Assembly (NCBI GenBank): GCA_958296385.1
Contig: OY282494.1
Coordinates: 2,455,537-2,519,536 of the forward strand
Direction of reading: 5' to 3'
Source: an uncultured Dehalococcoidia bacterium
Lineage (GTDB): Bacteria; Chloroflexota; Dehalococcoidia; Lucifugimonadales; UBA3495
Length of the DNA: 64,000 nt
The translations under genes were made by a program, and so were the position numbers. Shown here in pieces: positions 22,730 to 61,891 of this stretch. Every line of letters starts with the position of its first letter. Position 1 is the stretch's first letter. The notes under the pieces were generated by a model that saw nothing but the letters and a program-made list of their open reading frames with translations, was not told the DNA's origin and searched no databases.

Positions 22730-23725
22730 TTAAGGTGGGGCGGCGGCCAGCAGGGTTCCCACGGCGCGATTTACCAGGTTGGCGGCCATTGGCGCTTTGT
22801 AGGCGTTGTCGGGCAGGGGGCGGGGGTTGGGTATGGCTTGGGCGCCGGCCTGCTCTGCCGATATTTGGCTGACGCGGCGGTTGTGGAGGTAGGCTTCGGT
22901 GGCGGCGGCCCGGTAGGGTATGGGGGCGACGCCGCCCAGGACTATTGATGCTTGCTGCACGGTTGCGCCGGCGAGGGTTAGCGCGGCGGCTACGCTGACC
23001 AGGGCAAAGTCGCCGGATTCGCGCTCGCGGGCTTTCAGGTAGATACTCCGCTGGCCATCCGACGGAGGGGGCAGCGTTACGGCGGTGAGCAGTTCGCCGG
23101 GTTGCAGGATGTTCTCCCGCATCAGGTCAACGTCCGGGCCGGTGAAGTAATCTGCGATGGGCACGGTGCGGATGCCGCCGGCGGTGGCGATGTCAACCGA
23201 TGCGCCCAGGGCGGCCAGGGCTACGGCGGTATCCGACGGATGCACGATGAAACAGCGGTCGCCGCCGGTTATGCAGAGGTACTTGCCGACTCCGGGGACG
23301 GCGTAGCAGCGGTCGCCGCCCCGCTTGAGGCAGACGGTTAGCGGATGGCGGTAGTACCAGCAGCGGGGGCGCTGGTTGAGGTTGCCGCCCAGGGTGCCCA
23401 GGTTGCGAACCTGCGGCGTGGCCAGCCCGGCGGCGGCCTGTGCCAACGCAGCGTAACGCGTCCGGATGGCAGCATCGGCGGCGATGTCGGCGATGGTAGT
23501 AAGCGCGCCGATGCGCCGGCCGCCGTCAGCCGTATCGCTGATGCCGTGCAGTGCGCCGTCGGCTATGCTGTCCAGCGCAACCAGCGTATCCGGCGCGGCG
23601 GTGCCGTTGCGGATTTCGGACAGCAAATCGGTGCCGCCGGCGATGGCCGCCGCTGCGCCGCCGTCCGACGCCAGCAACGTACTCGCTTCAGCCAGGGATG
23701 TGGGACGGAGTAAGCGGAAAGTCAT
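22730..23725 (-). CDS. molybdenum hydroxylase, FAD-binding subunit with Fe-S cysteines
   Basis: This 331-residue FAD_binding_5/CO_deh_flav_C protein has AAAIAGGTDLLSEIRNG (FAD loop) and VRNLGTLGGNLNQRPRC. It carries an extra Cys-rich insertion with Cys122, 132, 140, 151 and 158 ending in FIVHPSD. The same insertion in PaoB (YagS) and in 4-hydroxybenzoyl-CoA reductase beta holds a [4Fe-4S] cluster, so one is likely here. Its ATG overlaps the stop of the molybdenum subunit gene by 4 nt (ATGA). Confidence 0.88.
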   Translation of the reverse strand: MTFRLLRPTSLAEASTLLASDGGAAAAIAGGTDLLSEIRNGTAAPDTLVALDSIADGALHGISDTADGGRRIGALTTIADIAADAAIRTRYAALAQAAAGLATPQVRNLGTLGGNLNQRPRCWYYRHPLTVCLKRGGDRCYAVPGVGKYLCITGGDRCFIVHPSDTAVALAALGASVDIATAGGIRTVPIADYFTGPDVDLMRENILQPGELLTAVTLPPPSDGQRSIYLKARERESGDFALVSVAAALTLAGATVQQASIVLGGVAPIPYRAAATEAYLHNRRVSQISAEQAGAQAIPNPRPLPDNAYKAPMAANLVNRAVGTLLAAAPP

Positions 23726-26016
23726 GTGGTCACGCTGCTACCTGACTGTTGGGCCAGGGCGTTGAGAATCTGGTCGGGTGTTATTGGAAGGCCGACGAAT
23801 CGGATGCCGATGGCATCATACAGGGCGTTGGCAATGGCCGGCGCCACGCCCACCGAGGGCACTTCGCCCAACGCCTTTGCGCCCATTGGCCCTACCGGGT
23901 CAATGACGTCGGCAAAGATGACGCGGATGTCGGGGTAGTCCTGTATGGTGGGGCTTTTATGCTCCAGGTAGCTGCCGTTGAGCGTTACGCCGGTGGGGGT
24001 GTCGGTTACCAGCTCCTCGCTGAGGGCAAACCCCAGCATCTGGGAGATGGCGCCCTCAACCTGATTCAGCGCGGTGCGCGGGTTGATGATGCGCCCGGAG
24101 TCGTGGGCGGCGACGTAGCGGGCGATGCGAACCCGGCCGGTGGCAGTGTCCACCTCAACCGCGCAGAAATGCGCCCCGAACGAGTTGACGATGTAATCAG
24201 GGCTGCCCGGCGTTACGGTTGCCTCGGCGGTTAGCGACGCGGAGCCGGCATCTTGGGCCAGCCGGGCAAAGGATACTCTACGCTGGGCATCGCCGGCTAC
24301 GAACACGGCGCCGTCGGCGATGCTCAATGCGTCTCGGGGCGCTGCCAGATGATTAGTCGCTGCGTCAAGGATGCGTTCCCGCAGCGCGGCCGCCGCTTGC
24401 AGCACCGCCGTGCCGGTGGAGAAAGTGGCCGTTGAACCGGCGGTTATCGGAGCATCGGGCGTGCTGTCGGTGTCGGCGAACCGGGGCAGGATGTCGTCGT
24501 AGCCTACGGACAGGGCCTCGGCGGCCATCTGGGCCAGCACCGTTACCGCGCCCTCGCCGACGTCAATCAAGCCGCTCACCAGCTGCACTTTACCATCGTC
24601 ATTAATGGACAGGCGGGCCGCCGAATCGGAACCGACGCCGCCCCGGTAGAGCATCATGCTCATACCCCGACCCCGCTTGAGGAACGGGTTTTGCGGGTCG
24701 TCGCGCCGGTATGATTCGTGCCAGCCAAACTCGGCCGCGCCCCGCCGCAAACATTCGGCCAGCCCGTTGCTGGAGAAAGGGATGCCGCCCTCCACCGGCT
24801 GCCCGTCCACAATCTCGTCGGGCGGCGTGAGACGGGGCCCGTCCTGTCCCTCCGGCGGCACGTGGTTGCGCTGGCGAAACTCCAGCGGGCCCATCCCGAC
24901 GGCGGCGGCGGCCCGGTCGATGAGGGTTTCCAGGGCAAAATGACCTTGCGGCGCGCCCAAAGCCCGGTAGCTGCCCGACACGGGCTTGTTGGTCGTGGCC
25001 GGCCGCGCGTCAAACCGGACGTTGGGGCACTTATAAAGGTAAAGCATCCCCTGCCCGGTGCGGCGGGCCACGCCGGGGGCGGACGCCTGATAGGCGCCGG
25101 AGTCCATGATGGCGTCGCCGTGAATGGCGGTAATGTCGCCGTTGCTGCGGACGCCCAGACGCAGCCTGATGCGCCCGCCGTGGCGAGTCCGTCCGGCGAC
25201 GAACTCCTCCTCCCGGCTGTACTCGATACGCACGGGACGGCCAGCGCGCCGGGCCAGCAGAGCCGCCAGAACCGCCAGGCGGGATTCATCCTTGTTGCCG
25301 TAGCCGCCGCCCATGTAGGGGCCGATAACCCGTACCAGCGCCGGGTCAATGCCGAGGACGTGGGCCAGGGCCGCCCGGTCCACGTGGACGCCGCGCGTGG
25401 ATTTCCAGACGGTGAGCCGCTGCCCCTCCCAGGCCGCCAGCGCCGCGCGGGGTTCCAGCGGCGTAGCCGAGTGAGTGGGCAGAGCGTAGGTTTCCTCAAG
25501 CACAATGTCGGCGTCAGCGAACCCGGCGGCGATGTCCCCGCGTTGCAAGGACAAGGGCTGGGGAATGGCCAGGTTGCCGCCGGGATGGATGGCCGGGGCG
25601 TCGGGTTCCAGCGCTGCCACCGGGTCGGTGACAAAGGGCAGCGGAGCGTACTCCACGCGCACCAGAGCGGCGGCCCGGCGGGCGGTGTCCAGGTCATCAG
25701 CTGCCACGGCGGCCACCTCATCGCCAGCGAACCGAACCCGCGTGTCCAGAACCGGCAAGTCCGGGGCCAGGCGCGCGGCGGGAGCATCAGCAGGCGTTAG
25801 CGCCGCCCGCACGCCGGGCAAAGCGAGGGCCGGCCCGACGTCAACGGAAAGCACGTCGGCGTGCGGATGCGGGCTGCGGACGATAACGCCGTGCAGCAGG
25901 CCGGGCAGCGCAATGTCAGCCGAGTAATCGGCAACGCCGGTCAGCTTATCGGCCAACTCCCGCCGGGGCACGCTGCGGCCGACGATGGAGAAAGATGGGG
26001 ATGGAGTGCTAGTCAT
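23722..26016 (-). CDS. molybdenum hydroxylase, molybdopterin-binding large subunit
   Basis: This 764-residue xanthine dehydrogenase/CoxL-family protein shows the N-terminal ADKLTGVADYSADIALPG, the PYMGGGYGNKDE block, SGSYRALGAPQGHFALE and the C-terminal GPMGAKALGEVP with the catalytic Glu718. It lacks the AYRCSFR loop of CO dehydrogenase, so it is not a CO oxidiser. It hydroxylates an aldehyde, purine or aromatic acyl-CoA type substrate. The FAD subunit follows directly; the [2Fe-2S] subunit is about 1 kb away on the other strand at 27012. Confidence 0.9.
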   Translation of the reverse strand: MTSTPSPSFSIVGRSVPRRELADKLTGVADYSADIALPGLLHGVIVRSPHPHADVLSVDVGPALALPGVRAALTPADAPAARLAPDLPVLDTRVRFAGDEVAAVAADDLDTARRAAALVRVEYAPLPFVTDPVAALEPDAPAIHPGGNLAIPQPLSLQRGDIAAGFADADIVLEETYALPTHSATPLEPRAALAAWEGQRLTVWKSTRGVHVDRAALAHVLGIDPALVRVIGPYMGGGYGNKDESRLAVLAALLARRAGRPVRIEYSREEEFVAGRTRHGGRIRLRLGVRSNGDITAIHGDAIMDSGAYQASAPGVARRTGQGMLYLYKCPNVRFDARPATTNKPVSGSYRALGAPQGHFALETLIDRAAAAVGMGPLEFRQRNHVPPEGQDGPRLTPPDEIVDGQPVEGGIPFSSNGLAECLRRGAAEFGWHESYRRDDPQNPFLKRGRGMSMMLYRGGVGSDSAARLSINDDGKVQLVSGLIDVGEGAVTVLAQMAAEALSVGYDDILPRFADTDSTPDAPITAGSTATFSTGTAVLQAAAALRERILDAATNHLAAPRDALSIADGAVFVAGDAQRRVSFARLAQDAGSASLTAEATVTPGSPDYIVNSFGAHFCAVEVDTATGRVRIARYVAAHDSGRIINPRTALNQVEGAISQMLGFALSEELVTDTPTGVTLNGSYLEHKSPTIQDYPDIRVIFADVIDPVGPMGAKALGEVPSVGVAPAIANALYDAIGIRFVGLPITPDQILNALAQQSGSSVTT

Positions 26017-27011: not shown

Positions 27012-27491
27012 ATGACGGATTTGCCTACTGTTGCCATCACTTTTACGGTCAACGGCGTGGCGCGTACTCTGGAGGCGGCGCACCACTGGTCGCTGCTGGA
27101 CGTGCTGCGGGACGCGCTGGGGCTGACCGGCTCCAAGCGGGGCTGCGACCGGGGCGAGTGCGGCTCTTGCACCGTTTTGCTGGACGGCAAGCCGTTCAAC
27201 GCCTGCCAGGTGCTGGCCGCGCGCATTGACGGCGCCTCTGTGTTGACTATTGAGGGTCTGGCGTCCGGCGGGCGGCTGTCCGGGGTGCAGCAGGCGTTTC
27301 TCGATGAAGATGGCGGGCAGTGCGGTTTCTGCACGCCGGGGTTTGTGATGGCGTCTTACGCCTTGCTGTCATCCAACCCATCGCCTACCGATGCGGAGAT
27401 TCGCGAGGCGCTGTCGGGCAACCTGTGCCGGTGCAACGCCTACGGGCGCATCCTGGCGTCGGTGCGGGCCGCGGCCCATCGGAACGAGTAA
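27012..27491 (+). CDS. molybdenum hydroxylase, [2Fe-2S] small subunit
   Basis: This 159-residue CoxS/XdhC-type protein has the plant-ferredoxin-like motif GCDRGECGSCTVL with the following Cys in NACQVL, and the second cluster motif QCGFCTPGFVM with GNLCRCNAYGRI. It passes electrons from the molybdenum site to the FAD subunit. It is separated from the other two subunits by two genes and read from the other strand. Confidence 0.92.
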   Translation: MTDLPTVAITFTVNGVARTLEAAHHWSLLDVLRDALGLTGSKRGCDRGECGSCTVLLDGKPFNACQVLAARIDGASVLTIEGLASGGRLSGVQQAFLDEDGGQCGFCTPGFVMASYALLSSNPSPTDAEIREALSGNLCRCNAYGRILASVRAAAHRNE

Positions 27492-28891: not shown

Positions 28892-29644
28892 TCAAGGGCC
28901 GGCGCGCCGGGTGCCCACAAACAGATGGCCGCCAATCTCGCCGTCGTAGCCCTCCGTCTCCAGATATTCGGCGTCAAACCCGGCGGCCTCCAGCAGCGTC
29001 AGCCAAGTTGACTTGGGGAACAGGCCGCTGGTGTGCCGGTCTTGCTCAACGGTTATCTCGCCGTCCCGGTTGATGATAAACAGGAACACCGACTCAATGG
29101 TAGTGTCCGCCGGGTTGGGGTCGGCGGTGTACTCAATAAACGTAACGTCGCGCTGGCGGTCGTGCCGGGTCCAGTCGATGACGCGCGGCCCGCGGAAAGA
29201 ATCCCGCAGGCAGTCGGGGGCCAGCAGCAGCAGGCCGCCGGGGTTGAGATGATGGACGGCGGTAGCAATCGCCGCGCGCAGGTCGGCTTCGTCCAGCATA
29301 TAGTTGACGGCATCGTAGATAGCAACCACGTCAAAACGCCGGTCAAGCCGTATCGTGCGCATATCGCCCAGATGATGCACCGTAGTGGGGTTCAGGTTGC
29401 GGGAAAGTTCCAGCATACGGGGCGATAAATCCACCGCCTCGGCATCAAAATGCGCCGTCAGATGGGACAGCAAATGACCGCCCCCGCAGCCCAATTCCAG
29501 CAGCCGGGGGCGCCGTCCGTCGCTGAAACACGCCGGTTCCAGCCGCTCCAGAATCACGTTCCGCCAGAGAAAAGCATCGGGAATATACTCCTCAGGCGGG
29601 CTGATAATTGGCCACAGATCGGCCAGGTCGTCGTACAGTCGCAT
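28892..29644 (-). CDS. class I SAM-dependent methyltransferase
   Basis: This 250-residue protein has motif I LLELGCGGGHLLSHL, the acidic end of strand 2 in AEAVDLSPRML, DVVAIYDAVNYM after strand 4, and HHLNPGGLLLLAPDCL. The C-terminal half has the strand-rich pattern typical of the small-molecule methyltransferase group. Target unknown. Confidence 0.82.
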   Translation of the reverse strand: MRLYDDLADLWPIISPPEEYIPDAFLWRNVILERLEPACFSDGRRPRLLELGCGGGHLLSHLTAHFDAEAVDLSPRMLELSRNLNPTTVHHLGDMRTIRLDRRFDVVAIYDAVNYMLDEADLRAAIATAVHHLNPGGLLLLAPDCLRDSFRGPRVIDWTRHDRQRDVTFIEYTADPNPADTTIESVFLFIINRDGEITVEQDRHTSGLFPKSTWLTLLEAAGFDAEYLETEGYDGEIGGHLFVGTRRAGP

Positions 29645-29692: not shown

Positions 29693-30436
29693 CTATTCGT
29701 CCTGCAACTCGTTCAGGAGCGACTGGATTAGCAAAACCCCTCTGGCCCCGGAGCTGGTATGAGCGATAAAGCCGTCCCGATCCAGAAACGCGTAGCTAGG
29801 AACGCCGCTCACGCCGTAGGCCGAGGCCAGCAGCGCCTGTTCGTCATATATGTTAGGGAACGACAGCCCGTTGCCCGCGACAAAAGCGCTGGTGTCGGCC
29901 TCCGTAGTGTTAAACTGCGACACGCCAACAACATTAATGCCGGCAGCCTCCAACTCGTCGGCGTAAAGCGACTGGACAGCGGGCAACTCCCGCTGGCAGT
30001 GCGGTCACCAGGGCGCCCAAAACACCACCAGCGTAGGCGTCCCCAAAGTATCCGCCAAGTCAAACTCCCCCCCATCCAGCAAAACCGCCTGAAACAGCGG
30101 CGCCGGCTGGCGCTCGCCCTCAACCGCGCGGGTAGGCAGCGGCCGGGGGGTGTAGGTGGGCCGGAGCGTAGCGGCAGGTTGGAGCGCAGCAGTAGGCGCC
30201 GGCGGCTCGGTTGCGACGGCGGCGGCGTCCGGGCTGGCGGTGGGCGCGATGCTGGGGATTAGAGCCTGCACGGTAGATTCGTAGCTGACAGTCGCCGGCT
30301 GCGCCGCCGGATTGGCGCAGCCGATTACGGCCAACGCCAACAACGCAACCAGCGCCGACGCTAAAATCGCCGGCCGCCGGCGGGAGTGCCGGGCCGGGTT
30401 GCGGGTATGGTGGTGGCTGGGGATTGGGGCGTCCAT
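29693..30436 (-). CDS. TlpA-like thioredoxin lipoprotein with in-frame UGA in the active site (probable selenoprotein)
   Basis: Reading UGA at 30007-30005 as selenocysteine gives a 247-residue protein. It has a basic start, a hydrophobic stretch ending in the lipobox VIGC, and an Ala/Pro/Thr linker. A TlpA/ResA-like thioredoxin domain follows with FWAPW-U-PHCQRE, where U is residue 144 and the partner Cys is 147, plus the cis-Pro loop GVPSYAFLD. The frame is intact on both sides of the UGA. A stem-loop follows at once (29971-30000). Without Sec the protein would stop exactly at its redox centre. The alternative is a Cys-to-stop point mutation. It would act as an extracytoplasmic thiol reductase. 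No selA, selB, selC or selD is in the window. Confidence 0.75.
29971..30000 (-). promoter_or_regulatory. candidate bacterial SECIS element
   Basis: Read on the minus strand after UGA and a few bases: ACUG-C-CAGCGGG-AGUUG-CCCGCUG-UC-CAGU. The upper stem is 7 perfect base pairs, the lower stem 4 pairs, and the 5-nt loop has G at its second position, 18 nt after the UGA. This fits the published bacterial SECIS rules: a loop with G in its first two positions, 16-37 nt from UGA. SelB would bind the loop. Confidence 0.7.
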
Positions 30437-61753: not shown

Positions 61754-61891
61754 AATAAAAAGACGGCCGGGCAAGAACCATGTCTTGGCGAACCGGATTA
61801 ATAACCAGTCCTCCCAACCGTGTTGTCACGATAGCACCGCCGTGCCGGGTTGTCAACCCCTTTAACCCCAGCGTCCTGCCGCCAGCCCCGT

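Follow-up and report, generated by a model that had tools for sequence, protein, structure and literature searches.

Evidence for a selenocysteine-containing TlpA/ResA-like lipoprotein in a genus of Dehalococcoidia

A gene on the reverse strand of a Dehalococcoidia genome appears to be broken by a stop codon, and the question that it raises is whether this UGA ends the protein or encodes selenocysteine (Sec). The gene lies in a window of 64,000 nucleotides, by which we mean the whole stretch of DNA that was analysed, and its features are collected in Table 1. Apart from one in-frame UGA, at codon 144, the frame running from 30436 to 29693 is uninterrupted. The N-terminal end of the encoded protein is basic; a hydrophobic segment leading to VIGC and a linker rich in Pro, Thr and Ala come next, and the C-terminal part is an AhpC-TSA/Redoxin domain. 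An earlier note on this DNA had placed the UGA at the first Cys of a WCxxC motif within an intact frame. This is confirmed; the context reads FWAPW-U-PHC, with U at the first Cys position of CxxC. We will argue that the gene is almost certainly intact, its UGA being read as Sec, and that the selenoprotein reading is well supported.

In the explanation that we favor, and hold to be correct with high confidence, the ribosome would read the UGA at 30007-30005 as Sec by means of SelB and tRNA-Sec, directed by a hairpin immediately downstream. The product would be exported and lipid-anchored; a flexible linker would carry its ResA/TlpA thioredoxin domain, and Sec144 and Cys147 would make up a UPHC redox centre. 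The case draws on the frame, the conservation of the UGA, the Sec machinery, a constraint at the RNA level and the predicted fold.

Table 1. Features of the locus and the adjoining gene, in positions of the window.
Feature	Positions	Strand	Remarks
Sec-containing TlpA/ResA-like lipoprotein gene (well supported)	29693..30436	-	247 codons including one UGA, then TAG stop
Predicted lipoprotein signal peptide, about residues 20-40, lipobox VIGC, lipid-accepting Cys40	30317..30379	-	From sequence
Pro/Thr/Ala-rich flexible linker, about residues 41-105	30122..30316	-	Low pLDDT, poor conservation
Thioredoxin-like domain, residues 106-247	29696..30121	-	pLDDT 91-98, ResA Foldseek matches
Sec144 codon UGA, first redox residue of UPHC motif	30005..30007	-	20/20 full-length genus homologues; Cys in homologues elsewhere
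SECIS hairpin, 7-bp stem, loop AGUUG	29977..29995	-	bSECIS rules, synonymous constraint, compensatory pairs
Class I SAM-dependent methyltransferase gene, 48 nt downstream	28892..29644	-	Pfam Methyltransf_25 6.9e-13

The source genome, a single contig of 3,298,084 bases, contains all four of the genes that the earlier note had proposed to look for, namely selA, selB, selC and selD. SelA (536.6 bits) and SelB (357 bits) both score over their cut-offs, and the tRNA-Sec (66.4 bits) lies above the Rfam gathering score and is identified by ARAGORN as tRNA-SeC with the anticodon tca (UCA). SelD (374 bits) has an in-frame TGA of its own, in the motif SHCAG-U-AAK, and is thus itself Sec-containing. Since no TGA was found in the formate dehydrogenase matches of this genome, SelD and the TlpA-like protein are the only selenoproteins identified in what is a non-exhaustive inventory. 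Parts of one formate dehydrogenase-like gene lie at the opposite ends of the contig (G000:C1:6-1919 and 3297916-3298083), which is consistent with a closed circular chromosome. SelA is over the cut-off in 84 of the 99 genomes searched in the order. The Sec machinery, being far more widely spread than the TlpA selenoprotein, is probably the older of the two and would have been in the lineage before it.

Directly after the UGA, the RNA can fold into CAGCGGG-AGUUG-CCCGCUG, with the 5′ arm at 29995-29989, the loop at 29988-29984 and the 3′ arm at 29983-29977. The published bSECIS rules specify a loop of 3-9 nt, a stem of 4-16 bp, a G in the first two loop positions, a UGA-loop spacing of 16-37 nt and an MFE of at most -7.5; the values found here are a 5-nt loop, 7 bp, a spacing of 16 and a local MFE of -13.2. 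The stem, the loop and the position of the loop G, 18 nt after the UGA, had all been described in the earlier note, as had the agreement with the bacterial SECIS rules, and they hold up for stem, loop, spacing and MFE. The 4-bp lower stem described along with them was rejected; it is specific to this sequence and not kept in the orthologues. No bulged U is obvious in the hairpin at 29977-29995; the SECIS element of E. coli fdhF has one.

Taken alone, the hairpin is only moderately unusual. Its score is matched or beaten by 129 of 20,000 synonymous recodings (about 0.6%), and an equally good hairpin follows 80 of the 3,137 codon positions in eight neighboring genes (2.6%). An argument for Sec from the hairpin only was rejected as weak on these figures, and the case therefore rests on comparison. 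When only those of the 20 full-length genus homologues that share the amino acid in question are counted, codon +5 after the UGA is CGG in 19/19, codon +6 is GAG in 15/15 and codon +7 is TTG in 19/19. Elsewhere in the same gene segments, TTG makes up 49 of 239 Leu codons (about 20%) and CGG 54 of 184 Arg codons. The loop AGUUG and the upper end of the stem fall within these three codons. The excess codon identity is 0.385 in the hairpin region, compared to 0.081 in the rest (Mann-Whitney p = 0.001). Changes on both sides are seen in three stem pairs, the compensatory ones being in the upper stem, and at columns 17/33 the pairs GC, AU, CG and UA are all found. The covariation score of 0.191, against 0.070 for shuffled alignments, is above all slid controls and was reached in 0 of 500 shuffles, a test that is inflated by the relatedness of the sequences. 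The earlier note had argued that a chance stop mutation would not be expected to bring a hairpin with it; this carries little weight for the hairpin alone, and it is the homologue comparison, with its synonymous invariance of loop and apex and its compensatory stem changes, that is decisive. The CGG-GAG-TTG run is not kept in the Cys homologues from other genera. The possibility raised beforehand, that Cys homologues would have the same hairpin, is thus not borne out, the apical motif being missing outside the genus.

Stems of 6-8 bp, with loops at the same place, are present in 15 of the 20 copies, and the bSECIS fit is weaker in the divergent paralogues than in the gene studied here. Shorter helices are possible around the same AGUU loop in L075, L076 and one L078 copy, L075 and L076 being marginal in the strict hairpin scan; L077 and the other L078 copy have interrupted stems and fail it. 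L078 (genome G007) consists of two adjacent divergent Sec-TlpA paralogues with the motifs UERC and UGYC, whose weaker hairpins are useful for testing the limits of SECIS elements.

These data also bear on the option that a suppressor tRNA or an altered code puts Cys or Trp, and not Sec, at this UGA. The codon stands exactly at a Cys position, and variant tRNAs do recode UGA in some bacteria. However, the true stop codon is TGA in 11 of the 20 full-length homologues, and UGA is therefore not globally reassigned. The codon thus has a double meaning that depends on context; this agrees with decoding through a SECIS and speaks against a change of the genetic code. With a tRNA-Sec(UCA) and the full Sec machinery present, and with the RNA-level constraint exactly at the SECIS position, we consider a Cys or Trp reading to be very improbable.

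Concerning the protein, Pfam assigns residues 110-231 to AhpC-TSA (3.3e-22; 79 bits, cut-off 26) and Redoxin (6.1e-19). The AlphaFold2 model has a hydrophobic helix at residues 20-38, a disordered linker, with pLDDT of 46-63 across residues 41-110, and a thioredoxin domain with pLDDT of 91-98. The best Foldseek matches in the PDB are ResA structures, with an rmsd of 1.6 over 134-137 columns, and 3c71 is the top one. Pfam domain and predicted ResA fold together place the protein in the TlpA/ResA-like thioredoxin-fold family. Judging from the family, it is very probably a lipid-anchored thioredoxin-like protein on the outer side of the cytoplasmic membrane, in which Sec carries out the attack.

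The conservation of this domain is difficult to reconcile with termination at the UGA, which would give a short truncated lipoprotein, the downstream frame being kept by occasional read-through. UGA alone is a stop in the genus, which counts in favor of such a scenario. Nevertheless, the whole thioredoxin domain after the UGA is conserved, with Cys147 and Pro213 (the cis-Pro position), like Cys40 before it, invariant in all 20 homologues; the hairpin is maintained and the Sec machinery is present. Truncation is accordingly given a very small probability.

A protein search of 99 related genomes yielded 21 UGA-bearing homologues, distributed over 14/14 genomes of the genus with 1-3 copies in each. 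One of them, from genome G004, runs off the end of its contig and was left out of the alignment. In the 20 full-length copies (13 genomes), which are 33-58% identical to the protein studied here, the UGA aligns to the same residue and the frame continues without a further stop for 103-106 codons, counted from the UGA. The assumption of a pseudogene or a sequencing error, for which a single base change from TGC or TGT to TGA at 30005-30007 would suffice and which the use of one genome assembly for this locus would allow, is refuted by this conservation across 20 independent full-length loci and can be set aside.

The homologue alignment suggested in the earlier note thus gives UGA together with constraint in the hairpin region within the genus, and Cys elsewhere. 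Among the matches listed, no UGA at the Sec144 position was found outside the genus, in 85 genomes of the order and 399 of the phylum, a result that holds for the stronger matches only. The phylum search covered 400 genomes with the alignment of the Sec copies as query, and outside the genus the matches listed are Cys forms only. L106 was considered as a Sec homologue from outside the genus and rejected; it has the motif ASWCPYC, and its TGA precedes the gene. No relatives were found in the viral contigs scanned. The Sec copies form one clade with an SH-aLRT of 96, in a tree from a short alignment with many unresolved forks. The simplest reading of these sequences would be that Cys was replaced by Sec once, at the base of the genus, and that duplication came later; transfer is a conceivable alternative origin.

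We now come to the redox role. The earlier note had proposed a secreted, lipid-anchored Sec reductase; the evidence supports its anchoring as a lipoprotein and its TlpA/ResA fold. CcdA is the reductant of ResA-type proteins. In the source genome, which is 99.95% complete, neither PF02683 nor PF13386, the CcdA/DsbD families, has a match, while both searches give matches in 10 of 14 control genomes; VKOR has no match either. The membrane routes known to serve thiol redox outside the cytoplasm (CcdA/DsbD, VKOR) are thus apparently missing in this genome, and the protein falls outside a ResA/CcdA-type reductase system, as the CcdA/DsbD donor was not found. DsbA has an oxidising CPHC motif. Because no CcdA/DsbD or VKOR partner was found and UPHC resembles the CPHC of DsbA, the term reductase is not established. 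With less certainty, we predict that its substrates are proteins outside the cytoplasmic membrane, with which it would exchange disulfides or in which it would reduce peroxides or oxidised thiols. A more specific proposal, which we regard as doubtful, is that the genus has an extracytoplasmic selenoprotein of its own, duplicated repeatedly, whose DsbA-like UPHC centre operates without a known membrane thiol conduit; as a lipoprotein it could, for instance, reduce peroxides or disulfides and be recycled by small thiols or another donor.

In five other genomes of the genus, a counterpart of the methyltransferase gene of Table 1, with 62-64% identity, also adjoins the tlpA gene, and the two are possibly co-transcribed. 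Other flanking genes were not found in the homologue flanks examined, which were mostly 1.5 kb. In seven orthologues (L021, L022, L024-L028), the motif TGCTAsGGTA precedes the ATG by a few bases and resembles an extended -10 element as in leaderless mRNAs; the gene studied here lacks this motif. Elsewhere in the window, 22730-26016 (-) and 27012-27491 (+) encode subunits of a xanthine dehydrogenase/CO dehydrogenase-like molybdenum hydroxylase (MoCoBD, FAD, 2Fe-2S), the 2Fe-2S subunit being on the opposite strand to the others, and 61764-61820 (-) matches the Rfam DUF3800-VI RNA motif with 44.2 bits.

Standard annotation would truncate or split this gene, and a genus-wide, often multi-copy redox lipoprotein would thereby be missed. 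The lineage also offers a clean single-clade case, with Sec confined to one genus and the family having Cys elsewhere in the order and phylum searched, and the natural SECIS variants among its paralogues make the SECIS rules testable.

It is finally instructive to compare the protein with known systems. B. subtilis ResA, whose wild-type motif is CEPC, shares the fold (rmsd 1.6, 25% identity) and is likewise a membrane-anchored extracytoplasmic thiol-disulfide oxidoreductase; the top match, 3c71, is an engineered CPHC variant. ResA differs in having Cys instead of Sec and in working with CcdA, which was not found in the source genome. The family of the curated NCBI model NF041054 (ResA-like, WAxxUGC motif selenoprotein) also combines a ResA-like domain with Sec, but membership was rejected at 54.4 bits against a cut-off of 300, the motif being UGC there and UPHC here. 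The Rcas_1661 family, NCBI model NF041057, consists of thioredoxin-like (seleno)lipoproteins with UxxC and a low-complexity linker; here too membership was rejected, as the protein scores 13.9 bits against a cut-off of 190, in the N-terminal/linker region only, and 0 of 31 relatives searched pass that cut-off. The Sargasso Sea metagenome gave the first reported UxxC TlpA-like selenoproteins, which have been known since 2005 (PMC1088965), and the catalogue entries include 'thiol-disulfide isomerase-like, cd02966, UxxC' as well as Prx-like or Redoxin UxxC families (PMC13188914). Since the kind is already catalogued in these two sources, the 'new selenoprotein' of the earlier note is new as a lineage and not as a kind; as far as the literature searched shows, this expanded Sec lineage has not been described. 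Compared by description, the cd02966 UxxC selenoprotein (reference MGB1650493.1) likewise has a TlpA/ResA-like thioredoxin fold with Sec first in UxxC, whereas the present lineage is a long-linker lipoprotein found in one genus among those searched, with 1-3 copies per genome.
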